The position numbers and the translations under genes are program-made. A model generated the notes under the pieces. That model had not been told where the DNA came from. It was given only the letters and a program-made list of their open reading frames with translations, and ran no database searches. Shown one piece after another: positions 26,113-63,698 of a stretch of DNA of 64,000 nucleotides. Position 1 is the stretch's first letter. Each line of letters begins with the position of its first letter. Source of the DNA: Jaapia argillacea MUCL 33604 (Eukaryota; Basidiomycota; Agaricomycetes; Jaapiales; Jaapiaceae); the NCBI GenBank assembly GCA_000697665.1, contig KL197711.1, positions 1,953,149 to 2,017,148 on the forward strand, in the 5' to 3' direction.

Positions 26113-26899
26113 CTTGGAAACTCGGAGGATCAGAAGGAATATCAAGGAGCGATTTCTGGGGGAACGTATCGATCTAAGCTTGAGGGTCGTGTGGCAAATA
26201 GAGCGTCGAGAACAACGACAGACTTCGGAGTTCAGAGTTTGACGAAGCGATCCCAAGCGATCATTGCACAGCCCGGCCAAGCATTGCACTTCTCGTCTAC
26301 AAGCCCTGCTTTTGATGTTGGCGGAGGTGGGCTATGTCGTACGCGTACGACGAAGGGTGCATGGAATCTGTAAGATAACCTGCCACCCATCTAGATGAGT
26401 TGGGATGCTCGATCCCGGTTGATGTGGAGAGAAATTGGAGGAAAATAAAGAAAATAAAGAAAATATAATGGGATTAAAGGCTTTTGCGGATGTTCCCCTT
26501 TGTTGCGCAACTTTCGAAACGGTAGTTTCTTCTCTTCGGCCAAGGCACCTGTGGAGGTCTCCTGTATGTCAACTTCAAGGCACATTCCGCCTTTGTCGAT
26601 TGCTGTCAGAGCGATTTGGTGTCGAACTGTTTGGAAGCGACGAGGCCTGACTCGGATATGATCAAGTCTCTACAAGGACAACATCCGAGTCGCAGGCCTT
26701 TCTCAACTTCCACACCGAATCCCACAATTTCAAACCAACTCTCCCCGACTTCGTTGGCACATCCATCACAATTTGGTATGGTCCCACTGGCTGGTATGAG
26801 GTGCTAGCCAATTTTGACCAACATACAATTTACACGAAACAAATGTTAGCGATGTAGTTCCAGGCAGATAAATAGTACCCACCAAGGAGATACGGCATC
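26113..26899. other. Intergenic region; outer edge of the left inverted-repeat arm
   Basis: No gene. From about 26488 rightwards the sequence matches, in reverse complement, the stretch ending near 63690. The match includes noncoding blocks such as the one at 26755-26870 next to the F-box stop codon. Confidence 0.6.
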
Positions 26900-28591
26900 C
26901 TAATCCTCATAATCAGAGATATATCCGTCATCCCATTCCACATTACCAACCACGGAATCACCATAGCCATCAACGATCTCTTGATTCAGACCGAAACATG
27001 ACTTCAGTTTCAACCCTTCCAGCTTCCCGATCGCGTCTCTCCTTTCCACCAAACCTGATGCCAGAATGTCCGTGAGGAGCCTTGGTGCCGCCCCACCATA
27101 CTTCCCATACCGACGGGAGAGATCAGTTTTATCAAAACAAAGTCGTTCCAAGTGAGGAAAGCAGGTGGATAGCAGAGTCACGAGGGCGGGACTGATCTGT
27201 CCAATGACTTGGCAAACACGAACATTAACTAAGCCGTCGAAAAGCTGGTGGCCTTGCTGAACGGTGAGATGCCATGCCCGGTATATCACAGTCGCGCAAA
27301 CATCTGACAAAGGGAGAATATCCAATAACTGTGGCACCCATTGCGATATGGAACAACGTGGGATGTCGAGTAGAAGTTGGGGCAGCTGCCCATTCGTCTT
27401 TGAGGTTGTGCCATCTTCTGTTAGACTGGCATGAACTGTCACTGGTCCAGATTCGACATCGAATTCGATAGCGAGGATGGGTATCGAGACGGGCGGGTCG
27501 CGCAAGCGTGATTGTAAGGCACGGAGTAGGTGGCGTATCTCGACAGTGTTTATGCCGTGTCGTTGGACGTCAATCGTTCGGACTTCAATGGAAGAAGCGG
27601 CTGTGAGAACAAGACAATCTAGCAAATTGGCACACCGGTCCATTTCATCGGATACACTCAGAGCATCAAGGGCTGGGAGTGATATCCGCCGTAGAGTGGA
27701 GATGTTGAGGGGTCCAGGTGGGAGTGCACCAAACAATTTCAACACATGAAGGGAGGGCATATTCTCCAGTGCCGATAACATGTGAGGGAAGTCTCTGGTG
27801 GTTTGGAGAGAATATTGTGAGTCGGTCGGACCGATCGTGAGGGAAGTGAGGTTCCGAAGGATGGGAGCAGTCCAATCTATGAAGATTCCACCAAAACCAA
27901 TGTGGCGCAAAGCAGGAGTGTCTCCTCCCAAGAGCCGCCCTAAGGGTAGGCGCATTCCAGGAATGGGGGCGGCGAGTTCTAGGCGCTCCAAAATCGGTGT
28001 GCTTCAACACAGTTGAAGCTCCATGCTTTCCGAGGTAAGGAGTTGAAACCCCGTCTCTGAGTAGGTGCGGAAGTCAAGAGGTGAAATAAGGGTATGTATC
28101 CGCCCGCTATGGTCCATCAGCAGAGCAAGATTTTCCTCATCTCGCTGCAGCATCTTCTCCGGGCTTGAAAAATCGACATCGATCGGAACCGAGGAGGAGC
28201 GAACCAGGAGCTCCTCAATGCAATCCTTGGGAGAACGAACTATTCTTCTCCAGTATGATGGGCACTGCAAGAGCACCTCCCGTAAATCTCGACAGATATG
28301 GGTAAACCCGAACAGCTTCTGACGGAAAGGCTTTGGATGGATAGGTCCTTTCTGCAGGAGAGGGTTGGTATCGAGGGCGTTGGGTGCGTTGAACTCGGCG
28401 ATACAAGATATAAAAATCTCGCAGAGGATTTCGGGTGGAAGTCGGAAAATGGATAGTCGAGCGTTTCGGGTTCTTTTCAAGGCGGACAGGGCTTGTTCAA
28501 AATGTGCGATTTGGCTGTCGAAATCCGCAAGTGAAACTGGGTGGAGAGTGTTGATACAATGAATTGGACAATGTATACAGGTCAACGCCAT
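26900..28591 (-). pseudogene. F-box protein F-box-1, interrupted by one stop codon
   Basis: One frame of 564 codons runs from the ATG at 28591 to 26900 and is broken only by a TGA at 28004-28006. The N-terminus has a CxxCPxHC motif (CIHCPIHC), then a helix and the F-box core FRLPPEILCEIF. It is followed by THICRDLREVLLQCPSYWRR and a C-terminal leucine-rich-repeat-like half with regularly spaced LxxLxL segments. Such proteins recruit substrates to SCF ubiquitin ligases. The partner copy in the right arm reads CGA (Arg) at the stop position; the local change TGCCGA to TGTTGA is two adjacent C-to-T steps. The partner is itself broken elsewhere. An intact allele or a base-call error remains possible. 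Confidence 0.8.
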
Positions 28592-29083
28592 GTTGGGTCC
28601 CATTCCAAATCTGAGTGGTGGCTGGCGCAAGTTGGTCGGAATGGTTGATCCACGACACTTCGAAGTCGGCTGCTGGTACCAGAAATCGTCACCCGTGATC
28701 ATTGTTATGAATGAAGACAGTGGTATCTTACCGTGCTGAAGCGAAGCGTTGCACAAGGTTTAAAGCAAGTTGCGATAAGTACTTATAGGAGAGAGAAAGA
28801 GGTTAGTTGTACGACAGCTGGTAAAACAAGTACTTATAAGGAGCTTAGCAAATGTAATTTAAAAAAAAATGTCGCTGGTCCACCCATCTGGCGACTGTGT
28901 TGCTTGCGCATGTCCCAGTAGCTCAATCAACCGTTGGTATCTCCAATCGCTCAAGTCTTTACAGAACCTTTTCTGACGGAATCAGACGGTACGATATCAT
29001 ACAGCCTTCACTGATAACAACACTCAATACTTACTGTAAGACCTCCGCCGCTTCAAGGCGAGGGCCACCAACAGACACGAAAT
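28592..29083. promoter_or_regulatory. Shared bidirectional promoter of the divergent F-box pair
   Basis: 492 bases separate the two divergent starts. The corresponding 472-base spacer of the other arm (61145-61616) keeps recognisable blocks, such as GACATCCAACATGGG around the F-box-2 start and the AGTACTTATAGGAG/AAGTGCTTATCT region. No TATA box is certain. Confidence 0.45.
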
Positions 29084-30744
29084 ATGACATCCAACATGGG
29101 CCTGACCTGCACATGTTGCCCAATGCATTGTCTTACCTCTTCGAACCCAATCACGCTCGTAGATATTGACGGCCAGATCGCCCATCTTGAACAAAACACC
29201 ATCGCCCTAAAAAGAAGGCGAAACGCCAGCCTTTCCATATTCCGACTTCCCCCAGAAATCCTTTGTAAAATTTTCATATTCTGTACCACCGAGCTCGACG
29301 GACTAAACCCTGACAATCCCGAGGCTATCCAAGCCAGGACGGACGGAGGACGGCCTTTCCTTCCCCAGCTGTTCAGGCTCACCCATATCTGTCAAGATTT
29401 ACGGGATGTACTCTTGCGGTGCCCACCCTACTGGAGCAGGGTAGTGCCTTGTTCGGAAGATTGCGTGGAGGAACTCCTTGTTCGTTCCTCCTCAACTCCG
29501 ATCCAAGTTGATTTATCACCCCAGGGGCCATATTGGGTGAGGTCACACATGGAAAAATTCCCTTTGATAATGGAGCATATTGGACGGATACGTACCCTCA
29601 TTTCACCTCTTGACACCAGCGTCTGGGAAAAGATGGAGTCTCAACTCTGTCAAAGTGCACCGACATTGGAGCATCTGGAGTTCAGCATCCGCTATGAGGG
29701 AATCCGCCTTCCCTTCGGGCAGCTCTTCGGAGGGAACACCCTTCTTTGCGCCACATCAAATTTCGTGGAATTTTCATGGATTGGACTGCCCCCATCTTTC
29801 GGGGCCTCACTTCCCTCACGATCGATGGCATCGAAGTCCCAGAATATTCATCCAATATCAAAGGAGACTTCTCTCACATGTTATCGGCACTGGAGAACAT
29901 GCCCTCTCTCCAGACCTTGTCATTGACCGGTGCACTCCCACCTCAACACCTCAACACCTCCACTACACGGCAGATATCCCTTCCGGCCCTTGCTACTTTG
30001 CGAGTGTACGACGAAGTAGACCAATGCGCCCACTTTCTCGATTGTCTCGTTCTTCCATGCGCTACTTCCATTGTCATTCAACCTTATGAAGCCGAGGAAT
30101 CCGACGCAAATGCCGTGGGTTGCTTGCTTAGTGCCTTACGTGCACGCTTGCGGGACCGGCCCATTCCGATTCCGATCCTCGCAGTCGAGTTCGGTGTAGA
30201 CTCGGGTCTGGTGGCAGCTTATACCAGCCTAACGGAGGATGGTGTAACCCCACATTGGGTGGGCGAACCACCCCGATCTATAGGAGTCGCCATCACACTG
30301 CTCACAGAACTTGCGCCATCTGGATGGATACCAGAGTTCTTGGAGATGATACCTTTGTCGAGCGTTCGCGCGACTGCGATACGCGGGGCACGGGACCTCA
30401 CTGTTGAAGTGGGTCGCCAGTTTTTCGACGGGTTGGTTGATGTTCGAGTTTGCGAAGTTGTTGGAGAGATCGGCCCCGCCTTCGCGACCCTGATATCAAC
30501 CTGCTTTCCTCACTTGGAGCGACTCTGTTTTCGTGGAATTAATTTTGGCTATCGGGACGTTGATGACGAGATGGAGACCCCTTTCAGAGAGACACTTGCC
30601 CTCAGTTTGGGAGAGAGGCTTCTGAATGGTGGAATACTGGAAGCGATCGAAATCGAGAAGTGTGTCGGTCTGACCCAAGATATCATCGACCGTTACAAGT
30701 TGTCAAGTCGCGTCGAATGGGATTGGTGTGGACTCGAAGAATGA
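29084..30744 (+). pseudogene. F-box protein F-box-2, frameshifted and tail-truncated
   Basis: The first frame (ATG 29084) carries MTSNMGLTCTCCPMHC, the F-box FRLPPEILCKIF and a following helical part, and stays aligned to the intact partner (59426-61144) until ~29740. There one base is missing in the GGGAACACCCTT region and the alignment moves to another frame, which runs to 30744. Near 30737 a second 1-base loss brings the stop forward, so the acidic tail (MTDDHSDTE) lies out of frame just downstream. Two independent indels against an intact copy argue for decay, although assembly errors should be excluded. Function would be substrate recognition for an SCF ligase. Confidence 0.8.
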
Positions 30745-30845
30745 CTGATGACCATTCAGACACCGAGCCTGAGGATGACAATTACGATGCATAACTATGC
30801 CTAACCTCATGTAATTGTCATAGTGCATACGTTTGTGACCCCAAT

Positions 30846-31502
30846 CTACGAAACTGTCCTGGTCATCCACGCCGCATCGCCATTCTCCCACTCCAAGAAT
30901 CCCTCCTTGACATACAAAGCTCGAGCGCCCTCGTTATCCTTCGAAACCTTCAACACAACAAGCCTCGCCTTCCTATCACCATCCGGGGCAACCCTCGACT
31001 GCTCCTCATTGATTGGCGCGGCGCATAGTCTGTTATCCATGGGTATGTCCTCCATCGATCCCCTCGAATACTTTTCAACATAATTAAACCCCGCCCGCAC
31101 AAGTCTTGATCCCAAGCCCCGCCCGCGATGATCAGGATGTACCCATAACCCTACAAGATTGAACAAATCCCCTCGTCTCAATATCTCCTTTGGTATATCA
31201 TGTGGGATATCCTTCAATGCATCAGGCCCCAAGAGGCTCATTGTTCCTATCCACTCTCCTCTCCTTTCCTCATCCGACACGACAAAAGTGACTCTCCCAT
31301 CCAAATCCAACCTCGATCTCCAAACCTCTGGCGTGAAAGCAAGTTCTCGGGCATAGGTCGAGCCGAAAAGGGAAGGATCGGTGCGGAGGGCGAGTAAACG
31401 GAGGGTAGAGAATTTTGTGAGGTCGGAATCGGAGGAAGGTATGGGGATCGGGAAGATGGTGTATGTATCTGGTTTTGAGAGTGGTTTGATCACGTCTTCC
31501 AT
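30846..31502 (-). CDS. GNAT-family N-acetyltransferase (GNAT-a)
   Basis: A single exon of 218 residues. The acetyl-CoA binding motif A is clear: LVGLWVHPDHRGRGLG, with the R-G-R-G-L-G loop, followed by SRLVRAGFNYVEKY. Motif B-like ALYVKEGFLEW is near the end. The substrate is unknown; GNAT enzymes of this size acetylate amines of metabolites, antibiotics or proteins. It is a near twin of the gene at 58736-59386 in the other arm and a more distant paralogue of its neighbour at 31845. Both arm copies are intact, unlike most genes of the duplication. Confidence 0.88.
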   Translation of the reverse strand: MEDVIKPLSKPDTYTIFPIPIPSSDSDLTKFSTLRLLALRTDPSLFGSTYARELAFTPEVWRSRLDLDGRVTFVVSDEERRGEWIGTMSLLGPDALKDIPHDIPKEILRRGDLFNLVGLWVHPDHRGRGLGSRLVRAGFNYVEKYSRGSMEDIPMDNRLCAAPINEEQSRVAPDGDRKARLVVLKVSKDNEGARALYVKEGFLEWENGDAAWMTRTVS

Positions 31503-31844
31503 TCTGCTATTAAGTGTGACTGGTCGTATCTATCTTTGTTTGGGTGGTATTTGTAGGCGGGTGCGACGAGTCATTGTGGCTGTGACTAAGTTCGATCTTT
31601 GCTACGGTGATGGGCTAGATAATTTGGCGGACAGTTGATGGATGATGATCTTGGAGTTGACGGACGCTACACGGCTGCGTATGTAGGTCCTCCGGGACAT
31701 GTTCTGTGTTCTTAAAGACTTGCCTTGTATGGTAATTATATTGCCATTTCGAATAGAGCATGAAAACACTGTTGACTGGGCCAGGACGCTTTTTACCCCT
31801 CAATTGCCCCTCCATCGCCTCCCCCCCCCGCCCCAATTAAAGGT
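31503..31844. other. Spacer between the two GNAT genes
   Basis: 342 bases with a C-rich run near 31820-31834 and no gene. It is much longer than the 69-base spacer between the GNAT genes of the other arm, so there was an insertion here or a loss there. Confidence 0.4.
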
Positions 31845-32450
31845 TCAGTAGAAAGATTTGGCCATCCACACCGAGCCTCCGCCCTGACACAGTGCCCCTT
31901 CTCCAACTTCCACGAAAGACTCCTTCGCATACAACCGTCTAGCATCCTCATTATCTTTCAACACCTCCAATACCAATAGTTTCAACTCCCCAGTGTACCC
32001 ATCCCCTAGCTTTCCGACCTGATACTTCTCGACGTGGTCGAACCCGGCACGAATGAGCTGAGATCCCAGACCTTTCCCTCGGTGGGTGGGGTGCACCCAC
32101 ATACTGACGATCATGAATAATTCCCCGCGTGCTGATATTTCGACCGGTGTGTCGTGTGGGATGTTTCGTAGAGCTGCTGGTCCCAAGATGGTCATCATCG
32201 CAACCCATTCTTCCTCCTCGTCGTTTGGTGGTAATGATGAGCGGGTGGATACGATAAAAGTAACTTTGTTGTTGTCGTCTAATCTTGACCTCCAGATATC
32301 AGGCGTGAAGACCGACTCACGAGCGTAGGTTGAGCAGAAGCGTGAAGGGTCGGTGTGGAGGGAGAGGAGACGGAGGGTGGAGAAGGCTGTCAAATGGGAA
32401 TCGGAGACGGGAGTGGGGATGGGGAAGAGGGTGTAGGGGTCTTGTGCCAT
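31845..32450 (-). CDS. GNAT-family N-acetyltransferase (GNAT-b)
   Basis: A single exon of 201 residues from MAQDPYTLFPIPTPVSD. Motif A reads MIVSMWVHPTHRGKGLG, with SQLIRAGFDHVEKY after it and RLYAKESFVEV near the C-terminus. It shares the N-terminal layout of GNAT-a (FSTLRLL, FxSTYARE, FTPDIWRSRLD), so the pair arose by tandem duplication before the large inverted duplication. Similarity between the arms ends at its first codons. The right-arm copy is broken. Substrate unknown. Confidence 0.87.
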   Translation of the reverse strand: MAQDPYTLFPIPTPVSDSHLTAFSTLRLLSLHTDPSRFCSTYARESVFTPDIWRSRLDDNNKVTFIVSTRSSLPPNDEEEEWVAMMTILGPAALRNIPHDTPVEISARGELFMIVSMWVHPTHRGKGLGSQLIRAGFDHVEKYQVGKLGDGYTGELKLLVLEVLKDNEDARRLYAKESFVEVGEGALCQGGGSVWMAKSFY

Positions 32451-33253
32451 TGGTCAAAATTGTTTGTTGTCTTCTAAGTTTCTGGAGTTTAGGCCTTGGT
32501 GTTAGGATCGCCACAACGCCTGAGATATTTGAAAAAAATCGATGAGAGCACGAGTCATTGCGAATGTTGACTCGTTGCGCAGGCTGGGCGTGATGGACTG
32601 CGATGCCCAGTTCGAATCTAAGTGCACGATCGATGCCAGTGAGGGGGAAGGATAATCATTCAAGGTGTAGTTTGAAGAGATGGAACGATGGGACTTATGG
32701 AGTGCCTTGAGCTAACAATATTGATGAAGACCTTGCCCGGTTGGTCCCTGAATCACCTTCAAGGAAGCGACGACCTCAAACCGTCGTGCTTCTGGATATC
32801 AGAGCAACAATCAGCTTACCGGAGCCCATCAGTGGCGAAATCTGTCTTGGAAGTTGGAACCGGAGCTCTGAGATCAATGATGCCCGTGTTCGTGTGCTCC
32901 GTATTGTTGTGATTAGGCCCTTGCCGGCCTAAGCCCTCAAGTAGAAATGGATGTCACACCTCTACCGAACTGTGTGTTCCCTTTGTTCTGCGTGTGCGAC
33001 ATCCAGCATATTACGACCATAGTCAAGCTAGTCAAGGTTCAAGCAAAGTTCAGGAATCATTTGCTGCGTATTGTTCTGGAGGCGACAAGCCCTGCAGCAG
33101 AATCTTCTGGTCGTTTCTGGCGAGGGTCAAATAACCGTCAACAAAGATTTGGTCATAGTGGCACCAGAGTCTGGGGGTAACTCGATAACCCTTTCTATCC
33201 ACAACCACCATCTTACCTCTGCGCTTGTCCATTTTACTAGCGCACAGTCCGAA
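32451..33253. other. Divergent promoter region, GNAT-b / RING protein
   Basis: 800 bases with no recognised gene. The RING frame is open 61 codons upstream of its first good ATG, but that part lacks an ATG start and looks noncoding. Confidence 0.4.
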
Positions 33254-36199
33254 ATGGAGGACAATCACCTTCCATTCCACGAAATCTCGCAATTGTTACG
33301 ACATATGGTTGGCTTGGCCAATCAAGCTCAGCAGCAGTTGCAACAACAGCCTCCCCCACCACCACCAACCGAGCAGGATTTGGCTGACATGCCTCCTCTA
33401 GAACCGATTCCCCAGGCGCCCGCACAGCCTACTACTACCAATGACCGCGAATTGGCGCCTGCGGAACAGCCTCCTGCTCCATTTGGTGAGCAGGGTTCCT
33501 ATTCTCACCCGGAACCCTCACACGTCGAACATCCAATTGACACAGACGTAGATATGGATGATATGCCACCATTAGAACCTATACCACCAAACGAACCTAA
33601 CGTTGAAAGACCACCTCGAGACGACGACGAGGAATCTATGCCTAACCTCGCGTCTGTCTCTGATTCCTCCGAGGAGAGAGATATTAGGGAGGTGGAGATG
33701 ATGGACGCTATGGAGGTCGTTCATGATGATGGCGACAGTGCTTGGGCTGATGAATCCGACCACCATATCCATCCCGATCCCGACGTTCCACCAATACTCG
33801 AGCCTATAGCGACATTACCCACCGGTGGTCGTCGTGCGAGGGTTGATGACATTATCGACGAAGATGACCGGCCAAGGTCTCGCCAGCGGACTTCTGGCCC
33901 TTCTAATACGAACGTGAACCAGCCTCCCCAACCACCACAAGGGCAGCCTCAGATGCCTCCTAATGTTGCTGGGTTTCGAGGATTTGGCGCTGGTCAGGGT
34001 AATCCACCCCCAATCGATATAACTGGCGTGTTCCGACATGCGTTCGGCTTGCCTCCCGCCCCTCAAGGACGACAAACACAACCTCGAGATGCCCCAGCTG
34101 CTACCTCTAATCTCAACACGAACGCGCCTCCTCCTCCTCCACCTCCCGCCCCAGCCGCGGACGCTCCCGACGCGAATCCTCTACCAGGTAGAACCGCAGA
34201 ATATCTCGGATTGGCGTTTACCACCGATATGAATGGCATACCAGTTACCATTTCTTTTGGTGGACGACAAACTTCGGGACAACCTGGACAGCCCCAACCA
34301 GCTGCTGGTGAACAACCACAAGAACCTCACATTCACCACCACCATCACGATCATGGCCACGATCACCCTCCTCCACCCGCCGGCTTCGCCACTTTCTTTG
34401 GTGGTCCCGGTGGTCTCTTTGGCGACGAACCCCCTCCCCTTGTCGATGTTCCTGAAGGTGGTGCCGCACCGGGTGTGTTCATGAACTTCCTAACTGCTCT
34501 CGGTATGGGTGGGTCCCTCGGAATACCTGAACAAGAAGACCCAGAACGTGCGAAGCGGTTGATCGCTGGATTGGAGGAAGTTCCTGTTGGTTTGGTCAAG
34601 AGGTTGGAGAGAGTTGGGGGTGCTCCTGGAGCCAGTCTCGCTGGGACTGATGGAGGGAGTGACGTACCCGGGTGTGCTGTTTGTTTGGATAAGCTTTTGG
34701 ACGCGGAGGGGGATAGTTTTGAGAGCTTGAATACTGAGGCTCAGACGGGCGACAGGGCGGTAGATGCGCAGGCGGGTGAAACGGGGGAGCAGAAGGATGA
34801 GAAGCAATCCCCAAAGATTGTTGTGTTACCCTGTGCGCACGTATTCCATGCTTCGTGTCTCCTTCCTTGGTTCTCGAGACCGAGACAAACGACTTGTCCT
34901 ACTTGTCGATTCAATATCGATCCCGATAACTTGACTTATCGACATAGACGTCGGGCGGCTGCTCAGCCTCAGCCCCCTCAGCAACAAGAAGCGCCCGCTC
35001 AACCCCAGCAACAACCACCACCTCAGCCTGCCACTGCTGATGGGAGACCACCGTCTCGAGAACCAACCCCCGTTGGAGACGCTCCGCCTCCAATTCCTGT
35101 GTTTGCAGACATTCCACCTCAACAAGCCCAACCACATCCTCTACCACCTGCAGGTGCAAATCCACCCCCACAGAACGCAAACCCAACGGCCAATGCCAAC
35201 ACCGGTCCTGCCATGTTTGGCGGACCACTCTTCACCATCGACATCACAATGGTAGTTGATCCAATCACTGGTGCTAGGTACGTGGTAAACAACCGTGGGC
35301 CTGCACCTGGCGCCGTCCCTCCTCGTACTGCCGGACCGGCTCCTCCTCCTCCAACTAATAACGATAACCAACCGCCACCCAACGAGCCTCCCCCTGTCTA
35401 CGCTGGACCTGAACTGCCACCTGATTTTGGTGCTGATGGTGGGGATCCGATTGAACCTACCCAGGAGGATTATGAGTTTGCGGCTGCTATGGTACAACAG
35501 ATGTTGGGTGGTCCTGGCGGGCCTTTTGCCAGGTTTGGTAGGGGAGCTGGGGCCGCGCCTATGGGTGCCAATGTCGACCCACCTGCAGAACCTACTGTAG
35601 ACGCGAATCCCCCTCCTCCTCCGACAGGCAACGCGAATCCCCCTCCCCCGCCCGCTGCGAACCCATTGCCCCCTCCCAATAGATCCTTCGCAGACTTCCT
35701 CAATGCTCGGGCACATACTGGTATCCCCTTTTTTGCCCCTCCTCCAATGCCTGCTCCAGACGCGAGACCAAGGAGATCACGGCCGAGAGAAAAGAGGCAA
35801 TGGATCTTACCACCACCTCCTGGTCCTACATTGCGTCAACGGGTTGAGCAGAAGGAGAGAGAGGCTGGGTTGAGATGTGATGATGTTAGCTGTGGGTTGG
35901 GTCCATCCGATGAAGATCCTATACCTTCAGTCGACATTGCCTCTTTGAAGCAAGTGTCGATTCATCCGTTGAGGAGTGGTGAGGATCAGGACGTTGCTGG
36001 GAGGTGTGTATGCGCGCATAAATTCCATCCTGCATGTTTGGTTACTGCTGAGCGTATTGCGGGTTGGGGAGGAAGTGACGATAAGGATAGCATGGATGAT
36101 GAAAAGGAGCCTGAAGTTGAGGTTTCCTGTCCGGTTTGTAGGGCTATTGGGTGGGTGGCTCGGGAGGAGTGGGAGGATGGTGTTCGGGCTCTTGCATGA
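33254..36199 (+). CDS. Proline-rich RING-type protein, probable E3 ubiquitin ligase
   Basis: One exon of 981 residues from ATG 33254. Most of it is low-complexity Pro/Gln/Asn-rich, with repeated acidic DMPPLEPIP blocks in the first 200 residues and a histidine cluster (HHHHHDHGHDH) near residue 360. A RING finger lies at about residues 474-555: CAVCLDKLL, a ~45-residue acidic insert, then LPCAHVFHASCLLPWF and CPTCRF. A second, degenerate zinc-binding region closes the protein (about 870-975): LRCDDVSCGLG, CVCAHKFHPACL and VSCPVCRAIGW. The first finger has the H2-type order Cys-His-His-Cys, typical of E3 ligases. The substrate is unknown. The absence of introns over nearly 3 kb is unusual beside its neighbours. 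Confidence 0.8.
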   Translation: MEDNHLPFHEISQLLRHMVGLANQAQQQLQQQPPPPPPTEQDLADMPPLEPIPQAPAQPTTTNDRELAPAEQPPAPFGEQGSYSHPEPSHVEHPIDTDVDMDDMPPLEPIPPNEPNVERPPRDDDEESMPNLASVSDSSEERDIREVEMMDAMEVVHDDGDSAWADESDHHIHPDPDVPPILEPIATLPTGGRRARVDDIIDEDDRPRSRQRTSGPSNTNVNQPPQPPQGQPQMPPNVAGFRGFGAGQGNPPPIDITGVFRHAFGLPPAPQGRQTQPRDAPAATSNLNTNAPPPPPPPAPAADAPDANPLPGRTAEYLGLAFTTDMNGIPVTISFGGRQTSGQPGQPQPAAGEQPQEPHIHHHHHDHGHDHPPPPAGFATFFGGPGGLFGDEPPPLVDVPEGGAAPGVFMNFLTALGMGGSLGIPEQEDPERAKRLIAGLEEVPVGLVKRLERVGGAPGASLAGTDGGSDVPGCAVCLDKLLDAEGDSFESLNTEAQTGDRAVDAQAGETGEQKDEKQSPKIVVLPCAHVFHASCLLPWFSRPRQTTCPTCRFNIDPDNLTYRHRRRAAAQPQPPQQQEAPAQPQQQPPPQPATADGRPPSREPTPVGDAPPPIPVFADIPPQQAQPHPLPPAGANPPPQNANPTANANTGPAMFGGPLFTIDITMVVDPITGARYVVNNRGPAPGAVPPRTAGPAPPPPTNNDNQPPPNEPPPVYAGPELPPDFGADGGDPIEPTQEDYEFAAAMVQQMLGGPGGPFARFGRGAGAAPMGANVDPPAEPTVDANPPPPPTGNANPPPPPAANPLPPPNRSFADFLNARAHTGIPFFAPPPMPAPDARPRRSRPREKRQWILPPPPGPTLRQRVEQKEREAGLRCDDVSCGLGPSDEDPIPSVDIASLKQVSIHPLRSGEDQDVAGRCVCAHKFHPACLVTAERIAGWGGSDDKDSMDDEKEPEVEVSCPVCRAIGWVAREEWEDGVRALA

Positions 36200-36636
36200 T
36201 TGTCAGTGTGGTTTCTTGATCTGTCCCTCCTTTACCTCGACAGATCCATCCAAGTGTACTTGTAAGTTTCTCGGTGTGTTGATTCGGGGTTCTCTTGTTC
36301 TGATCCACGCGATGTGCAGGCCGTTATAATTTTGTCCCATCCGTCAATTCATTAATACATGATTCATTGAAGTATTTATTCGCAATCCCTCTCGTCCAAC
36401 TCGTATCGTTTTGTCTTTCCACTCCCCACTGCATATGTACCATGGTTACAGGACGCAATAATAGACATTCTTGAGGAAATCTCTGAGCAAATGTGCCTGC
36501 CCTTTTGAGAATACTATTCAACGACATCACCTCACCGCTGCCGTACAGGCACCAAACTTTTCCATGAGAGTCGCATTAGTACGAGATAGATAGTCATCGC
36601 AGATCGTGATAGGAAGCAGAGGCATAATGGTTTCGA
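36200..36636. other. Convergent 3' intergenic region
   Basis: 437 bases between the stops of the RING gene and the phosphatidylserine synthase gene. Nothing seen beyond UTR-like sequence. Confidence 0.4.
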
Positions 36637-53579: not shown

Positions 53580-54489
53580 GTCGGCAGCGAGAGGGTATCG
53601 TATCGCTGGTCGTTAGTTTTGAAAGTGGGTCTTAGCAGTGAGTTCTGGCAGCTCTGCGGTGCATGTCTTTATACCCCTCGAACAAACGATCACGGGCAGG
53701 TCGCTAAAGTTAAAGTTTAACAACGGGTCGGACCCTTGCCAGAAGAGTTCTAGTCGGTACCATGTCGCATATGCAGAGACGGAGTGGTTGTGCAACTGCT
53801 GAGGCGGTGCTGATATGCAGATCATGGCCGTCGAGTCCATACCACACGAGTACTAATATGGACCAACAATCGTCCACAGTAACGACAATCATATTGAAAC
53901 CTGCATCAGTAAAGTATCCAGTGGTATGGGATTGGAATGGACCAACCGATACCAGGTCATACCACCTAACCCTTTTCTCTGATGCTGTTGAGTCCGGCGG
54001 TTGAAACTTGCGAGTGCAGTGCCAACGTACTATCACGGATACCGCTGTTATCATAGAGGGTTTCTCACCGCATTGCCACGAAGCAGACAGTTCTAAAAAT
54101 ACTGTCGGTTAGAGTGGGCAAAGGGGGAGGCTTGGTTGGGATGAAGTGGTCGAGCATGAGGCTCGGAATGGAGACCGGGTAGGCGCCGGGTAGGTGAGGA
54201 TGGGCATTGGAAGCAGGATATGCTGGTTGATCAAGCAAGGTGGGGTCAGGATATGTCTGGTTCGGATAATGCATCGGTCACCTAGGGTTGTGTATGGCAT
54301 GAGTACAAATAGCGCCCAACCCAAACTATCCATATCCCGCCCAAATCCCGCCAGCTGCTAATTTGAACTCTATCAGTGATCAAGGCTGTTGGATCCGGAG
54401 GATTTGGGATCCCTTCATGCAGGCCGCTAGCATGACACGATAAATGATGGACGGTGGTCGACCATTTCCGGGTTCCGGAGTGAGTGGCT
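53580..54489. other. Upstream region of membrane-protein copy 1
   Basis: Contains the TATA box and further sequence shared with 56352-56870. No gene is seen. Confidence 0.4.
53668..53675 (-). promoter_or_regulatory. TATA box of membrane-protein copy 1
   Basis: Reads GTATAAAG on the minus strand, about 90 bases before the start codon. It is conserved at the matching place before copy 2. Confidence 0.6.
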
Positions 54490-54845
54490 TCGGATTTTCG
54501 GGGAAACGTAGACGGCGGTGGAGAGTTCTGGTCTCGAGACCCGGATTTATGGGTCTTGAAAGTGAATTTGTGAGTAGGAGGAGGGCAGGAATCTTAAACA
54601 TAGGTTATTATTTTAAGGTATGCTAAAGTAGACTAGGCAGGGTTATTATTGTTCTTCTTCATTCACATCAATCAGTATCGAGCCGTTATTCTTGGCTTCT
54701 CGAACAGTTTCCTTCTCCTTCGCTCGTACGAGGTCCTTTGCCCTGGATATCGGCGAGGTTGGGAGAGGAGAGAGGATGTTCGTCGGATGGGATAGCGCGT
54801 TGTTTGCCTTTGGCTTTTTCGCTGAGTGGACGATGTAAGTTTGAG
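54490..54845 (-). pseudogene. Fragment of DSC3 left by the duplication
   Basis: It has two blocks. The stretch 54680-54840 matches DSC3 exon 1 (51766-52005), including the codons for the start of the ubiquitin-like domain and KAKGKQRA, with an internal deletion. The stretch 54505-54565 matches the start of DSC3 exon 2 and its splice acceptor. The middle and all downstream exons are missing and the reading frame is broken. It lies in the same orientation and at the same relative position as DSC3 before the first membrane-protein gene. Confidence 0.75.
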
Positions 54846-55186
54846 GTGGCTGTGGCCAGCGTTGGGGTAATTAATGTTGTTCTGAATCATGCATATTTGA
54901 CGCAGTGATCCTCGTTCCCTTGGCGACTGTCTTGAAATTGAAATTGGCATTCCGATGAAATATCTCTTTGGACATTATATTCGAGCGCGTTCATTCAGGA
55001 AAACAGTACTAGTATAAGTAATCATAACGACTGGTGATATAAAAAGCACATCTAATTCACAACTTCTCTCAAGCGAAATGAGAGTAAGGAAACAAGGAAT
55101 GATTCCTAACGAACGATGTCCATCTCCCAATGACCAGCCTCCTCCCCATCGTCTCAACCCAACAGCCCCCACCCCAAACCCAAGCC
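54846..55186. other. Spacer between the DSC3 fragment and membrane-protein copy 2
   Basis: 341 bases, counterpart of 52014-52398. No gene. Confidence 0.4.
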
Positions 55187-56351
55187 TCAGACCTGACTCC
55201 TCTCCATCTCCCTCTCCTGTAACTCCCTCCTATCGGGCACCAACCCACGTACTGCAAACAAACATACAGCGAGTAGCTCTGGTAGAGCGGAGAGTGGGTA
55301 GAATAGTGCTTCGTTGTTTGCTTTTGCCTATGATGAACGAGTTATCATCAGCATCGAATACTTATCGTTTGGGGATGGGATGGGAGGAAGGGCTTACCTG
55401 GGTCGTAGCAGACGAGTTACCAGTGGTAGCGGTGAAGAATGACTCGCGGATTAAGAGGAGGAGAGCGATGAGGAGGAGGGTTGGAAGGACATGTTTGCCC
55501 GACAAGTGAGAGGGGTGTACAGGATATGGTTTTTGTCCAGGTGTCATCACGATCGTTTCAGCTACAAATCCAAATAAATCAGCATCTCATCCTGCCTCCC
55601 CAAACAACACAAAAAAGCACTCACAAGCATCATTCCGTCCATCAGCCAATTCACCCACAACCAAACTCAACGTCTCCGCCGCCAAAAGTACACAGACAGC
55701 CAAGAAGATATAAATACTAATTTGTCTCAACTTCAGTCCACTGTGCGCTGCAGACGGTGTCTTGGCTTCGCTGTAATTGATAGCTCCCACTATGCCGATT
55801 GCGACTGCTGCTGATAGTGCAATGCGGATTAAGTGGCGGGAGCGGATTAGGCGGGAGACGAGGCCTAAGGGCCCGGGGAGTAGGGGGCGGGGGTTGAGGA
55901 GTTCTCTAGAGTGGTGGTTAGTTTGTGTGGGAAGGGCCCGGGTGTGTGTGGGGGGGGGGGGACGTACCGGTCGAGAACGAGGGTGTAGGCTGAGTAGAGG
56001 AGACCGAAGAAACCGGTACTGTAGATCACTTGTTCGGCGATTATGAGATTCAGGTTTTCACCCGCTCCTGTTGACCCTGCTAGGATGGCTCTCATGATGA
56101 ACGCTGTCACCCGGACTGGTGGAAGGAAGCAAAGAAATCGGACAGAGAAAAAATCATGAGTGTCTGATCTGGAAGGGATGGACGAAAAGGGACGTACGAG
56201 CGCAGAACAAGGATAAGACGATGAAGACATAGGTGGGTCTTCGGATAGATTGGAGGATGTAGAAGACGAGGAGAGGGGCATAGACAACGGCGAAGATGAC
56301 TGCAGCAGCTACGCTATGAATCCCAGAGTACGACGCATAGTTGATCGCCAT
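55187..56351 (-). CDS. Multipass membrane protein, RTA1-like/DUF7702 type, copy 2
   Basis: The exon pattern is the same as copy 1, from MAINYASYSGIHSVAAAV to a stop at 55187. Helices match copy 1 with mostly conservative changes (VIFAVVYAPLLVFYILQSI, VIYSTGFFGLLYSAYTLVLD, ISIYIFLAVCVLLAAETLSL, LLIALLLLIRESFFTATTG). The intron near 55950 contains an 11-base G run. No disabling change was seen, so this looks like a working paralogue. Function is as uncertain as for copy 1; tandem retention may mean higher dosage or divergent roles. Confidence 0.75.
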
Positions 56352-56458
56352 TTTGTCAGGGAGAGAGAGTATCCTATCGGTCGGTATCAGAATTGAAACT
56401 GGGACCTGTCAAGCTTGCGGGGCTAAAGCAATGAGTTCTGCCATTCTGTGTTGCATGG

Positions 56459-56466
56459 CTTTATAC
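56459..56466 (-). promoter_or_regulatory. TATA box of membrane-protein copy 2
   Basis: Reads GTATAAAG on the minus strand about 110 bases before the start. It is the counterpart of the box at 53668. Confidence 0.55.
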
Positions 56467-56870
56467 TCCACAACAACAAGCGATCGGAAGCTGATGTCGC
56501 TAAAGTTTAACGACCGGGGCCTGAGTATTCTATTTATTCTTGGAAACCGAGGCGATGGCTGCGCGCTGTACGGATCCTTGGAGGAGAGTTGGACCAATAC
56601 TCATCCGCAGTAAGGACATCGCATTGAGACCTATTATCGGTGGTGGTGAAACTGCCAATGCAATGCCGAACTACAGCATTTCCCATGATCAAGTCTAAAA
56701 GTTGGCATAGGGCCCCGGACGCTGGTTCGATGCAATGGTCGGCCACGAGGCCTTGTGGAGACCGAGTATACGGGCGGGTCGGTGACGATGGGTATTGGAA
56801 GCAGGACATGCTAGATGAGCGTGAAAGTTGCGGTCAGGATTGTCGACTCGGAATGGTGCACCGATAAGGT

Positions 56871-58084
56871 ATGTTGATCCCGCAAGTCCAACAACCATTG
56901 TCAACCAATTCTAACACTGGCAGCACAACATCTTGTGAGGAGTTGGGATTCAGGAATGCCAATCTTCGAATTCAGCGCTTAGCTGGTTTTCGGGGGAGAG
57001 TTGCACTCCGGTTCCAATGGGGGTGGATGTTGGATCTAGAATCTGCTGCGACAAAGTCTTCCTGCAACGTCGCACACAGCTACTGTGCGGTTCCAAGAAA
57101 AGATTATCTGTGGGGCTGATCGACTGAGGGCCACGGCCCAAGCGCCGCGGCGGCGCGGCCCGTGCGCAGTCTGAGCAGTCTCTGGCTAGAGTCGGCGCAT
57201 GAAGGAGCTCCCAACGCTTGTTGTGAAAATGGCCACCATCTATCTCAGTTGCGATGTTCCCTCCCTAAGTACCCTGTTGGCACCCGCTTTCTCTCAGACG
57301 CCATCGGTTTCCGACCTCCCAGCAACCGTTACCACAGGTGGTACGTCGGGTTACAACTGTGCCAGACGCGTCGACCACTGGCACGGACTTGATGATATCA
57401 GACACCGTTTCGCGGACATCTCCTCAATGTTCAGGGAAACCCAGGCATATTGATGATATCAACCAGATCTGAATGACATTTACCACCAGGATGCCCTGGC
57501 GTCAACCGCTCAGCTTGACCAATGGCCGTCACTCTCAGCAACTGCGAAACATTGATTCACCTTTCGCACCTCTCGTCTATACATATCTAAAATGGCCTTG
57601 TCTCTCAAGCGTTTGTCCTAGTGAGTACGAATTATACTCACAGATATTGGTCTTGACGCTGACGCTGACTCGTCGCTGAGGTATTTAGACAACCGGCGCT
57701 TCTGGCTTTCTTGGTTGACATATCGTTGTCAAGCCCCAGAAGAACAAACAAAATTATCTCCGAGGGTAAGTATCGCCTGGCACGACAGTGTTGTACATCC
57801 ATTTCTGCTGAACCTGTATCTTCATCGAAATGTGATGCCAGGACGGCTCGGTCGTGGCAGGTCCGACGATCTCGTAAACGAAGGACACATACGATATGGT
57901 GACCGGTTCGAGGCGGCTCGGATTGAGGACATCGCCAGAAGCTACCCCCCTGACGCTCTTCCAGGTATGTTTGGGTGTACTGATATAAGAGATGAGAAAA
58001 CAACTGAATGAACATCGTGCAGAATTTAGATATCGAAGCTGTCATTCACACCCCCTCAGGGCCGCTTGCTGGCCAGCGTAGCGA
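56871..58084. other. Gap with an unassigned + strand coding remnant next to the inverted-repeat junction
   Basis: Open + strand segments at 57199-57453 and about 57840-57965 (containing GHIRYGDRFEAARIEDIARS) look protein-like and could be exons. The last would run into sequence at 58008-58090, where the inverted repeat begins. I recognise no family. It may be a gene cut by the duplication. A very GC-rich patch lies at 57130-57170. Confidence 0.25.
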
Positions 58085-58666
58085 AATTCAACGATACACC
58101 CTCTTCCCAATCCCCACTCCCGTCTCCGATTCCCACTTGACTACCTTCTCCGCCCTCCGACTCCTCTCCCTCCACACCGACACCTCACGCTTCTGTTCAA
58201 CCTACGCTCGCGAATCAGTCTTCACGCCTGATATCTGGAGGTCAAGATTAGACGACGACGATAAAGTCACTTTTATTGTATCCACCCGCTCATCGTTACC
58301 ACCATACGGCGACGAGGGAACAAGGGAGGAAGAATGGGTTGTGATGATGAACATCTTGGGACCAGCAGTTCTACGAAACATCCCACATGACACACCGGTC
58401 GACATATCGCACGCAGGGAGTGATTCATGATTGTCAGTTTGTGGGTGCATCCTACCCATCGAGGAAAGGGTCTGAGATCTCAACTCCTTCGTGCGGGGTT
58501 CGACCACGTCGAGAAGTATCAGGTTGGGGAGATAGGTGATGCGGACACCAGCAAGATGAATGAGGATGCTAGACGGTTGTATACAAAGGAGAAGTTCACG
58601 GAAGCTGGAGAATGGACGCGGTGTCAGGGCGGGGGCTCGGTGTGGATGGTTAAAGCCTTCCAGTAA
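58085..58666 (+). pseudogene. GNAT acetyltransferase GNAT-b', broken copy
   Basis: It matches GNAT-b (31845-32450) from YTLFPIPTPVSDSHL through the motif WVHPTHRGKGL to the end (QGGGSVWMVKAF). Three defects are visible: the start codon region is replaced at the duplication junction; one base is lost near 58408, shifting the frame just before motif A; and about ten codons are missing near 58550. It is therefore unlikely to make a working enzyme. Confidence 0.82.
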
Positions 58667-58735
58667 TCTTTCGATGTAACAGTCGGAAGAAGTGAAAGCC
58701 CTCGACGCTCCTTTCGTGCTTGGCTCGATAACAGA

Positions 58736-59386
58736 ATGGAAGACGTGACTAAACTCAAACTCATACACTACGCCATCTTCCTAATACCCATACCTTCTTC
58801 CGAGTCCGACCTCGCAAAATTCTCCAGCCTCCGTTTACTCGCCCTCCGCACAGATCCTTCCCTTTTCGGCTCGACCTACGCCCGAGAACTTGCTTTCACG
58901 CCAGAGATTTGGAGGTCGAGCTTAGATTTGGATGGGAGAGTCACTTTTGTCGTGTCGGATGATGAAAGGGGAGGAAAGTGGATAGGAACGATGAGCCTTT
59001 TGGGACCGGACGCGCTGAGGAATATACCACATGATATACCAAAGGAGATATTGAGACGAGGAGAGTTGTTCAACGTTGTAGGGTTATGGGTACATCCTGA
59101 TCATCGTGGCCAGGGCTTGGGATCAAGACTAGTGCGGGCGGGATTTGATTATGTTAAAAACTATTCCAGGGGATCGATGGAGGACATTTCCATGGATAAC
59201 AAACTATGCATAGTGCCAATCGATGAGGAGCATTCGAGGGCTACCCCGGATGGTGGTGGGAAGGAAAAACTTGTTATGTTGAAGGCTTCGAAGGATAACG
59301 AGGGTGCTCGAGCTTTGTATGCCAAGGAGGGTTTCCTGGAGTGGGAGGATGGTGATGCAGCGTGGATGATCAGGACGGTTTCGTAG
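58736..59386 (+). CDS. GNAT-family N-acetyltransferase (GNAT-a')
   Basis: An intact single exon of 216 residues from MEDVTKLKLIHYAIF, the twin of GNAT-a at 30846. Motif A is VVGLWVHPDHRGQGLG; the third loop residue Gln replaces Arg of the twin and still fits the Q/R-x-x-G-x-G/A rule. ALYAKEGFLEWEDGDA closes the fold. It ends only 39 bases before the stop of the convergent F-box-2' gene. Substrate unknown. Confidence 0.88.
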   Translation: MEDVTKLKLIHYAIFLIPIPSSESDLAKFSSLRLLALRTDPSLFGSTYARELAFTPEIWRSSLDLDGRVTFVVSDDERGGKWIGTMSLLGPDALRNIPHDIPKEILRRGELFNVVGLWVHPDHRGQGLGSRLVRAGFDYVKNYSRGSMEDISMDNKLCIVPIDEEHSRATPDGGGKEKLVMLKASKDNEGARALYAKEGFLEWEDGDAAWMIRTVS

Positions 59387-59425
59387 ATTGGGGTCCAAAT
59401 CCCTATAGCATGAGGTTAGGCATAG

Positions 59426-61144
59426 TTATGCATCGGAATTATCATCCTCGGTGTCTGAATGGTCATCAGTCATTTCTACGAATCCGCACCAATCCCATTC
59501 AACGTGACGGGAATACGCCTCGTAACGGTCGATGATCTCTTCGGTCAGACCTTCACAGCTCTCAATTTCCATCTCTTCCAATAAATCAAACCCGTTTAGA
59601 AACCTCTCTCCCAAACTGGATGCGAGTGCCTCTCTGAAAGGGGTCTCCATCTCATCATCAACGTCCCGATAGTCAAAATCAATTCCACGAAAACAGAGTC
59701 GCTCCAAGTGAGGAAAGCAGGTGGATATCAGGGTCGCGAAGGCGGGACCGATCTCTCCAACGACTTCGCAAACACGAACGTCGACCAAGCCGTCGAAATA
59801 CTGGTGACCATCCTCAAGGGTAAGGCTCGATGCCCCGCGTATCGCAGTCGCACGAACATTCGACAACGGGAGCATCTCCAACAAATCTGATACCCATTCA
59901 TATGGTTCAACTTCAGGATCCATGATCAGTGTGATGGCGACTCCTAGAGGTTGGGGCAGCTCCTCCCCCCCAGATGGGGTTTCACCATCCTCCGTTATGC
60001 TGGTATAAGCTGCCACTAGACTAGAGTCTACACCGAACTCTAGTGCGAGGATCGGAACCGAAATGGGCGGGTCCCGCAAGCGTGCATGTAAGGCACTAAA
60101 GAAGTAGCCTACAGCGTCCGAGTGGGATTGCTGGGCTTCAAACGCATGAATGGCAATGGAAGAAGCGTTTGGGAGAACGAGGCGATCGAGAAAGTGGGCG
60201 CATTGGCCTACTTCGTCGTACACTCGCAAAGTAGTGAGGGCCGGAAAGGATATCTGCCGTGTAGTGGAGGTGTTGGGGTGTTCCGGTGGAAGTGCACTAG
60301 TCAACGACAAGGTCTGAAGAGAGGGCATGTTCTCCAGTGCCGATAACATCTGAGAGAAGTCCCCTTCGATATTGGAAGAATAATTTGGGACTTCGACGCC
60401 ATTGATCGTGAGGGAAGTGAGACCTCGAAAGATGGGGGCAGTCCAATCCATGAAGATTCCACGAAAATTGATGTGGCGCAAAGAAGGAGTGTCCCCTCCG
60501 AAGAGCCGCCCAAAGGGAAGGCGAATACCAGTATAGCGGACGCTGAGCTCCAGATACTCCAATGTCGGTGCATCTTGACAGAGGTGAGCCTCCATCCTTT
60601 CCATGAGGCTGAAGTGAAGAGGTAAAATGAGGGTATGTATCCGTCCAATCTGCTTCATGATCGAAGAGAAATTTTCCATGTGTTCCCTCGGCCGATATGG
60701 CCCTGGAGGTGATAAATCGACTTTGATGGGGGCTGAGGAGGAACGAAAAAGGAGTTCCTTCATGCAATCTTTCGAACAAGGCACTAACTTGCCCCAGTAC
60801 GGCGGGCACTGCAAGAGTACCTCCCGTAAATCTTGACAGATATGGGTGAGCCTGAGCAGCTGGGGAAGGAAAGGCCGTGACCCATCCCCCGTAGCTTGGA
60901 CAACGTCAGAATTGTCAGGGTTTAGTCCGTCGAGCTCGGTGGTACAGAATATGAAGATTTTACAAAGGATTTCTGGAGGAAGTCGGAATATTGGTAGGTT
61001 GGCGTTTCGCCTTCTTTTTAGAGCGATGATGTTTTTTTCAAGATGAGCGATCTGGCTGTCGAAATCCACGAGCGTGATTGGGTTCGAAGAGGTGATACAA
61101 TGAATTGGGCAAGATGTGTAGGTCAAGCCCATGTTGGATGTCAT
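59426..61144 (-). CDS. F-box protein F-box-2', intact copy
   Basis: One open frame of 572 residues from MTSNMGLTYTSCPIHC. After the Cys-rich start and a helix (FDSQIAHLEKNIIALKRRR) comes the F-box core FRLPPEILCKIF at about residues 49-60, then LTHICQDLREVLLQCPPYW. The remaining 400 residues form leucine-rich-repeat-like units (LEYLELSVRYTGIRLPFG, LRHINFRGIFMDW, LERLCFRGIDF). The acidic tail ends MTDDHSDTEDDNSDA. It probably binds Skp1 and presents substrates to an SCF ubiquitin ligase. It is the only undamaged member of the four F-box copies here and serves as the reference for their lesions. Confidence 0.85.
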   Translation of the reverse strand: MTSNMGLTYTSCPIHCITSSNPITLVDFDSQIAHLEKNIIALKRRRNANLPIFRLPPEILCKIFIFCTTELDGLNPDNSDVVQATGDGSRPFLPQLLRLTHICQDLREVLLQCPPYWGKLVPCSKDCMKELLFRSSSAPIKVDLSPPGPYRPREHMENFSSIMKQIGRIHTLILPLHFSLMERMEAHLCQDAPTLEYLELSVRYTGIRLPFGRLFGGDTPSLRHINFRGIFMDWTAPIFRGLTSLTINGVEVPNYSSNIEGDFSQMLSALENMPSLQTLSLTSALPPEHPNTSTTRQISFPALTTLRVYDEVGQCAHFLDRLVLPNASSIAIHAFEAQQSHSDAVGYFFSALHARLRDPPISVPILALEFGVDSSLVAAYTSITEDGETPSGGEELPQPLGVAITLIMDPEVEPYEWVSDLLEMLPLSNVRATAIRGASSLTLEDGHQYFDGLVDVRVCEVVGEIGPAFATLISTCFPHLERLCFRGIDFDYRDVDDEMETPFREALASSLGERFLNGFDLLEEMEIESCEGLTEEIIDRYEAYSRHVEWDWCGFVEMTDDHSDTEDDNSDA

Positions 61145-61616
61145 GATTCGTGGCTGCTGGTGGCCCTCGCCTTCAAGGGGCGTGGATCGTACAGCAAATA
61201 TTAAGTGTTGTGATGAGTGAGGGCTGTGGGATGTCGCACCGTCTGATTCGGTCAGAAAAAGTCCTGTAAAGACTTGGGCGATGGAGATACCAATGGTCGA
61301 GTTGAGCTACTTGGAAGGCGGACATGCGAAAGCATCACAGTCGTCTCCAGCCAGGGCAGCGACAGTTTGACTTATATTTGCTAAGTAACTTTTAAGTGCT
61401 TATCTTATTCGCTCTTGTAAAACTAACCTTGTTCTCTCTCCTCGACTTCTGGTTTAACCTCTTCGCTACAGCTCGGTGAGATACTACACCGTCTTCATTC
61501 ACAACAGCGATCACTAATAATGATTTATGGTACCAGCAGCCGTCTTCGAGCCCCGTGGATCAACCCATCCGACCAACTTGCGCCGGCCACCACTCAGATT
61601 CGGATTGGGATCCAAC
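61145..61616. promoter_or_regulatory. Bidirectional promoter of the right-arm F-box pair
   Basis: Spacer between the divergent starts of F-box-2' and F-box-1', related in sequence to 28592-29083. It contains CTTATATTTG near 61371 on the + strand. Confidence 0.4.
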
Positions 61617-63304
61617 ATGGCGTTCACCTGCACACATTGTCCAATTCATTGTATCAACTCTCTCCACCCAGTTTCACTTGTGGATTTCGACAGCCAAATC
61701 GCCCATTTTGAACACACCCTGTCCACCCTGAAAAGAACCCGAAATACTCGTCTATCCATTTTCCGACTTCCACCAGAAATCCTCTGTGAGATTTTCTATC
61801 TTGTATCACCGAGTTCAATGCACCCAACCCTCTCGATGTCAACCCTTTCCTGTGGAAGCCACCTATCCATCCAAAGCGTTTCTGTCAGAAGCTGTTTGGG
61901 CTTACCCATATCTGCCGAGATTTACGGGAGGTGCTCTTACAGTGCCCATCGTATTGGAGAAGAATAGTTCATTCTCCCAAGGATTGCGTTGAGGGGCTCA
62001 TGGTTCGCTCCTCCTTAGCCCCGATCGAAATCGATTTTTCAAGCCTGGAGAAGATGCTGAGGCGAGATGAGGAAAATCTTACTCTGTTAATGGATCATAG
62101 TGGGCGGATACATACCCTTATTTTACCTCTTGACTTCTGCACCTATTCAGAGACGGAGTTTCAACTCCTTACCTCGGAAAGCATGGAGCTTCAACTGTGC
62201 CGAAGCACACCGATGTTGGAGCGCGTAGAGCTCACCGTCCCTACCCCAGGAATTTGCCTTCCCTCAGGGAGGCTCTTTGGAGGAGATACTCCTGCTTTGC
62301 GCCACATTCGTTTTCATGGAATTCCCATAGATTGGACTGCCCCCATCCTTCGGAACCTCACTTCCCTAATGATCGCTCTGACCCACTCACAATATTCCCT
62401 CCAAACTTCCGGAGACTTCCCTCACATGTTATCGGCGCTGGAGAATATGCCCTCACTTCAGGTCTTGGAGTTGCTTTGTGCACTCCCGCCTGGGCCCCTC
62501 AACACCTCCACTATACGGTGGATCTCACTCCCAGCCCTTGCTGCTCTGAGCATATCTGACGAAGTGGATCGGTGTGCCAATTTTCTAGATTGTCTTGTTC
62601 TTACAGGCGCTTCTTCCATCGAAGTCTGGGCGTTTCCCATTGAGCGACACAGTCCAAGACCTGACGATATACCTCACTTACTCCGTGCCTTACATTCACG
62701 CTTGCACAACCCGTCTGATTTGATACCCATCCTCGGTATCGAATTCAGTAACAAAAATGGACCAGTGGTAGTTTATGCCAGTCTAACAGAGGATGGCGAA
62801 ACCCCACAGATGAAGAGGCAGCTGCCCCGACTTCTACTCTGCATCCGTGATTGTTCCGTATCGGAATGGGTGCCACAATTACTGGATATTCTCCCTTTAT
62901 CAGGTGTTTGCACGACCGCGATAGATGATGCATGGTACCTCACTGTTGAACAAGGCCACCAGCTTTTCGACTGCTTGGTTAATGTTCGTGTTTGCCAAGT
63001 CTTTGGAAATTTCAGCCCCGACTTTGTGACTCTGCTATCCCCCTGCTTTCCTCGCTTGGAACAACTTTGTTTTCATAGAACTAATTTCTCCCGTTGGTAT
63101 GGGGTGTATGGCAAGCCGGATAGGCGTCTCGCGGATATTCTGGCATCAGGTTTGATAGAAAGGAGAGACGCTATTGGAAAGCTGGAAAGGTTGAAACTGA
63201 AGTCATGTTTCAATCTGAATCAAGAGATCATTGGTGGCTATGGTGATTCCGTGGTTGGTAATGTTGAATGGGATGACGGATATATCTCTGATCATGAAGA
63301 ATAG
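61617..63304 (+). pseudogene. F-box protein F-box-1', frameshifted copy
   Basis: From ATG 61617 the frame encodes MAFTCTHCPIHC and the F-box FRLPPEILCEIF, then fails near 61795, where one base is missing in the ATTTTCTATC stretch compared with F-box-1 (ATTTTTATATC). The alignment continues in another frame (THICRDLREV-like, CPSYWRR) to the stop at 63302-63304. The leucine-rich part is otherwise uninterrupted and lacks the TGA of the left-arm copy. So both F-box-1 copies are damaged, at different points. Confidence 0.82.
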
Positions 63305-63698
63305 GATACCCTACCTCCTTGGTGCGTACTATTTATCTGCCTGAACTACATAGCTAACATTTGTTTCGTGTAATTGTATGTTGGCCAAATCCGGCTAGGA
63401 CCATACCAACGAATTGTGATAGATGTACCAACAAAGTCGGGGAGAGCTGGTTTGTGGGATTTGGGGTGGAAGTTGAGAAAGGCCTGCAACTCGGACGCTG
63501 TCCTTGTAGCCAGCTGGAGACTTGATCATGTCAGGCGTCATCGCCTCCAACAATTCAACACCAGTCGTTCTGATAGTGATTGACAAACGCGGAATGTGAC
63601 CTTGAAGTTGACTCACAGGAGACCTTCACCACAAGCTCTTCAATACGATCAACCTTTCGAAAGTTGCACAACATATGCCAACATCCTGGCTCATCTAG
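63305..63698. other. Outer flank of the right inverted-repeat arm
   Basis: Noncoding here, but alignable in reverse complement with 26488-26899. Similarity fades near 63690. Confidence 0.5.

Follow-up and report, generated by a model that had tools for sequence, protein, structure and literature searches.

Large F-box gene families evolve by birth and death. Two other systems come close to the locus described here. In Caenorhabditis elegans, homologous gene pairs form long inverted repeats that are close to perfect and apparently actively maintained (PMC1803023). In Drosophila, duplication of breakpoint DNA is reported as the mark of inversion through staggered breaks (PMC4965816). Our literature search found no paper on staggered inverted duplications in fungi.

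Here, we analyzed 64,000 nucleotides of the basidiomycete Jaapia argillacea MUCL 33604 (contig KL197711.1, positions 1,953,149 to 2,017,148; hereafter the window, whose coordinates are used throughout unless a scaffold is named), in which a block of two F-box and two GNAT genes stands on both sides of a 25.6 kb segment in opposite orientation. We consider, with a probability of about 0.68, that this block was copied once in inverted orientation and that both arms decayed independently thereafter. The locus shares local copies, mixed orientation, unequal decay and a large family with F-box birth and death, and the weak constraint is alike (F-box dN/dS is ~0.6 here, the ratio of non-synonymous to synonymous divergence), whereas the present block joins two F-box genes with two GNAT genes in a single inverted copy. 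The C. elegans repeats likewise combine inverted paralogous genes with intergenic DNA, but they are nearly perfect, while the arms described here are 85.5% identical and show no sign of homogenisation (PMC1803023). With the Drosophila inversions, the locus shares copies of one segment at both ends of a chromosomal stretch (PMC4965816). It would represent a clear case, with silent divergence measured, of a mixed F-box/GNAT cluster that was copied as an inverted block and sorted by independent loss.

A Four-Gene Block Is Present in Two Inverted Arms

The preliminary description of this DNA, made from the letters alone, had proposed a diverged inverted duplication and a dot plot as its check. Self-BLAST of the window gave the inverted diagonal, and the duplication is real. 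Positions 58728-63629 matched 31510-26551 in reverse with 84.1% identity over 4,996 columns, at 5399 bits and an E-value of 0, which excludes a chance match. A second stretch, 58095-58660, matched 32435-31851 in reverse with 81.4% identity over 597 columns (602 bits). Global alignment set the inner edges at 32435 and 58095 and the outer edges at ~26490 and ~63690. By both methods, arm A, probably the source copy, occupies 26488..32435 (+), and arm B, probably the derived copy, occupies 58095..63690 (-), with homology beginning within the GNAT-b open reading frame (ORF). The coordinates first proposed, 26488-32445 and 58085-63690, were accurate to about 10 bases, and the mirrored order and strands of F-box-1, F-box-2, GNAT-a and GNAT-b were recovered as described. 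In the block, F-box-1 and F-box-2 are arranged head to head, and GNAT-a and GNAT-b in tandem.

Alignment of the arms over 5,545 columns gave 803 substitutions, an identity of 85.5%. Of the 36 indels, the longest (239 bp, missing in arm B) lies in the interval between GNAT-b and GNAT-a. Past the arm edges, identity was ~33-50% per 100 columns. The locus thus combines the two features of an inverted segmental duplication, long reverse-complement homology over genes and intergenic DNA, and sharp edges.

The Arms Carry Different Frame Breaks

The eight gene copies of the two arms differ in the state of their reading frames. In arm A, F-box-1 (26900..28603, -) is divided by one in-frame stop (TGA) at 28004-28006 into two pieces in the same frame; its start was set by eye against a third F-box-1 copy outside the window, and its longest ORF starts at 28702. 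F-box-2 (29084..30794, +) has a broken frame, with successive parts in frames 1, 0 and 2, that is, two frame shifts as read by eye from the pieces. GNAT-a (30846..31502, -; 218 aa; PF00583, E 7.2e-11) and GNAT-b (31845..32450, -; 201 aa; PF00583, E 1.2e-9) are intact, and the start codon of the latter lies just beyond the edge of the duplicated stretch. In arm B, GNAT-b (58095..58666, +) is frameshifted, and its homology excludes the start codon and upstream region of the arm A gene. GNAT-a (58736..59386, +; 216 aa; PF00583, E 4.4e-12) and F-box-2 (59426..61144, -; 572 aa) are intact. F-box-1 (61617..63304, +, start set by eye) has a frameshift in the region of the F-box motif and an ORF at 62000-63304.

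Fewer than eight genes are therefore intact, with frame breaks in F-box-1 and F-box-2 of arm A and in F-box-1 and GNAT-b of arm B, and GNAT-a is the gene with an open frame in both arms. No lesion common to arm A and arm B was seen among the frame breaks, indicating that the block was probably intact when it was copied. The broken copies have presumably lost their function.

Divergence Is Alike Along the Arms

The synonymous divergence (dS) between the arms was measured for each gene pair. It was 0.219 for F-box-1 (dN/dS 0.61, 549 codons), 0.218 for F-box-2 (dN/dS 0.60, 565 codons), 0.271 for GNAT-a (dN/dS 0.32, 215 codons) and 0.305 for GNAT-b (dN/dS 0.33, 186 codons). Jukes-Cantor distances in the two larger non-coding stretches were 0.194 over 368 columns 3′ of F-box-1 and 0.235 over 352 columns separating F-box-1 from F-box-2. 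Given that dS is alike in the four genes and that these two distances are alike, one duplication event is suggested, and an old single event followed by roughly neutral decay fits the data.

The arms were also compared in 55 windows of 100 columns, which held between 5 and 31 differences each, and the longest identical run was 45 bp. Recent gene conversion between the arms was rejected, as none of the 55 windows contained a low-divergence tract. Neither the high identity nor the conversion tracts expected of an inversion switch were found between the arms.

Origin of the Inverted Arms

We suggest that the four-gene block was copied once, inverted, ~26 kb along the same chromosome, as a passive segmental duplication that would most likely have arisen through break repair or template switching. 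From then on, the arms would have diverged as separate paralogues that did not homogenise each other, with individual genes lost independently in either arm, as in the birth and death of fast-changing families. Homology in arm B opens about five codons into the GNAT-b frame, without the start codon or upstream DNA of arm A; because it begins inside coding sequence, the copying probably ran from arm A to arm B. Several observations weigh against this account. The A-to-B direction hangs on a single breakpoint. An ATG upstream in arm B's own flank reads in frame into GNAT-b and gives a 140-residue ORF, so the older GNAT-b start may be the one in arm B, and copying from B to A, as a staggered-break inversion would suggest, is possible. 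The frame breaks could be sequencing errors. Two short inter-arm stretches of 83 and 69 columns gave distances of 0.117 and 0.616, being too short or gapped to date. Moreover, the 45-bp run was reached in just 31 of 1,000 shuffles, and the divergence is overdispersed, with a variance of 34 against a binomial 12 per 100 columns. We read the long run and the overdispersion as uneven constraint, and a small old conversion tract between the arms is possible.

The main and serious rival is an inversion through staggered breaks, in which two nicks ~5.6 kb apart on one side would have been filled in at their ends and the 25.6 kb segment rejoined in inverted orientation. The sharp arms, the single event and the unlike flanks fit such an anatomy, and the upstream ATG at the inner edge of arm B would fit an older GNAT-b context kept there. 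However, it is in arm A, and not in arm B, that GNAT-b is intact and has its start codon beside the edge, which speaks weakly against an inversion like those of Drosophila (PMC4965816), and the third F-box-1 copy shows that parts of the block were also copied in other ways. We regard this inversion as rather unlikely. If the segment proved to be inverted in a sister genome, the locus would be a fungal example of a staggered-break inversion.

Two further readings were weighed against the single inverted copying. The geometry alone, with ~5.5 kb of inverted homology on each side of the 25.6 kb segment, would suit arms that recombine and flip it, as the preliminary description had suggested; both orientations would then be present in populations. 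The 14.5% substitutions, the 36 indels, the 45-bp longest identity and the lack of any low-divergence tract give this no support, as exchange is expected to homogenise the arms at least partly. In one report, recombination is suppressed between bacterial genomes at 20% divergence, and efficiency in a yeast single-strand-annealing assay falls below 50% at 3% divergence already (PMC8072546). Given the arm divergence, the short identical runs and such suppression, flipping appears highly improbable, and it is equally hard to credit that occasional exchange between the arms continues and keeps the 25.6 kb segment, with its conserved housekeeping-type genes (actin family, DSC3, phosphatidylserine synthase), segregating in either orientation in natural populations. 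On the other hand, one arm could be an assembly artefact, formed when a second haplotype was misplaced or a copy misjoined, since mycelia can be dikaryotic and a run of N starts at 64001, directly past the window. This is very unlikely, because the arms face opposite ways between dissimilar flanks, show 14.5% divergence and distinct lesions, and have a similarly diverged relative in the third F-box-1 copy.

A Third F-box-1 Copy Lies Left of Arm A

The third F-box-1 copy, F3, was found on the window's own scaffold (C3:1939642-1941318), ~38 kb left of arm A and inverted relative to it. It is intact (559 aa), and three F-box-1 copies are thus present within one neighbourhood. Self-comparison showed that homology between arm A and F3 extends outward to 26318. 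A search with 25600-26560 returned itself alone, yet it missed the F3 flank found by BLAST and was given no weight.

In a DNA tree, the F-box-1 copies of arm A (A1), F3 and arm B (B1) stood apart from the F-box-2 copies (A2, B2), with both supports at 100/100. A1 and F3 were grouped with a support of 90/92, under the tool's mark for strong support. The dS values were 0.159 for A1-F3, 0.219 for A1-B1 and 0.215 for B1-F3. In alignment columns 800-1800, 115 sites join A1 with F3 against 48 that join A1 with B1, and outside these columns the numbers are 67 and 68. The grouping of A1 with F3 could therefore stem from an A1-F3 conversion tract or from faster change of B1 in that part. Repeat-induced mutation was not taken as shown, with CpG-type changes at 144 of 504 transitions; among polarised changes, C>T or G>A made up 38 of 76 in B1, 15 of 36 in A1 and 17 of 41 in F3.

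A MYND-finger gene occurs on either side of F3, its two copies standing in direct orientation and ~2 and ~36 bases from the F3 homology. The MYND pair together with F3 spans window positions -15966..-8913 (C3:1937182-1944235), and the MYND copies are 82-83% identical. Their dS (0.25-0.36) is larger than that of F3-A1 (0.159), and the layout resembles an insertion of F-box-1 DNA into the joint of a tandem duplication.

Family Assignment and Relatives in the Genome

The GNAT assignment was examined with a Pfam scan of PF00583 that took in three of the four GNAT copies, namely GNAT-a of both arms and GNAT-b of arm A. The proteins P0003, P0004 and P0005 scored 46.8, 38.9 and 42.8 bits against a cut-off of 20.7. 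Comparison of GNAT-a with solved structures gave three weak matches (best E 0.044), which were not used. For the F-box proteins, F-box-2 of arm B (P0001) remained under the Pfam cut-off (PF12937, 10.9 bits vs 24.3), and so did F3 (PF13013, 18.0 bits vs 21.6). Seven of the 10 loci matching P0001 overlap PF12937 matches above the cut-off; in five of these seven the F-box motif lies within the ORF aligned to P0001, and in the other two the chosen ORF began past the motif. An extra eleventh locus, on scaffold C7, was taken as F-box reference outside the 10. The F-box label of the arm proteins is thus assigned by sequence homology to paralogues.

The genome was searched for relatives of both groups. 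With 5 of 5 candidates scored, the GNAT group gave 5 matches, every one of them at the four arm genes. For the F-box group, 76 of 92 candidates were scored and 71 matches obtained; those with more than 46% identity were all accounted for by the five copies near this end of the scaffold. F-box-like matches amounted to at least 149 genome-wide (150 of 525 candidates scored). Farther F-box relatives lie at ~90-99 kb in window coordinates, and relatives elsewhere cluster in mixed orientation at several places, such as C4:244-298 kb. Given these many matches and local clusters, local copying looks normal in this genome. The inverted block is real, yet as a duplication within gene families it is rather ordinary.

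Enclosed Segment and Surroundings

The enclosed segment (32436..58094, ~25.6 kb) was examined by Pfam scans of selected ORFs. It contains a RING-H2 protein (33032-36196, +), one exon with a phosphatidylserine synthase domain (PSS, PF03034; 38020-38502, -), a Zn2Cys6-like ORF (43605-44042, +) with 20.2 bits, slightly below the cut-off of 21, TANGO2 (45495-46055, -), an actin-family ORF (PF00022; 47593-48276, +) and DSC3 (Dsc3_N, PF10302; 51379-52100, -). DSC3 and phosphatidylserine synthase, which had been placed between the arms from the letters alone, were thereby confirmed, and the proposed ARP6 was borne out to the level of the actin family. The DSC3 region with neighbouring ORFs is itself duplicated directly (51659..54257, + and 54507..56844, +); self-BLAST gave these copies in five pieces with 73.7-91.9% identity. 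No known RNA family reached its gathering score within the window.

The outer end of arm B adjoins a long terminal repeat (LTR)-like sequence (63699..64000, +), which starts nine bases past the nominal edge and is cut at the window end. At least 37 further places carry this LTR at 91-95% identity (39 of 254 candidates scored). The self-comparison showed no copy of it at the other three arm edges, other element families not being searched. For this LTR family, a transposon as the cause of the duplication was rejected, the LTR being present at only one of four edges. Because the homology of arm A and F3 continues to 26318, insertion of the LTR at arm B could mask further homology. The outer flank of arm B is readable over ~300 bases, which are LTR, and runs of N follow right of the window at 64001-82024 and 92922-96662. 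Between them, at 82131-89832, lies a related LTR-retrotransposon-like element with repeats of ~562 bp that are 98% identical and a target duplication CCTAC.

Mating-type regions are marked by STE3 receptors and the MIP-type M3 peptidase. None of 62 STE3 matches was on scaffold C3, and the M3-peptidase match closest to the locus, which ends at C3:901644, is more than 1 Mb away. A mating locus was rejected on these two markers, homeodomain genes not being searched. As regards a possible subtelomeric position, the scaffold ends 48 kb past the window, and exact (TTAGGG)4 was found at no place in the assembly.

Local copies abound around the arms, namely the MYND pair, the DSC3 pair, the F-box relatives and a direct pair at window -24963/-22707 (span -24963..-20283). 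The last of these is ~2.1 kb long with 83% identity. To the right of the window, a palindrome-like stretch at 99379-100175 is 85% identical to its own reverse complement over 816 columns.

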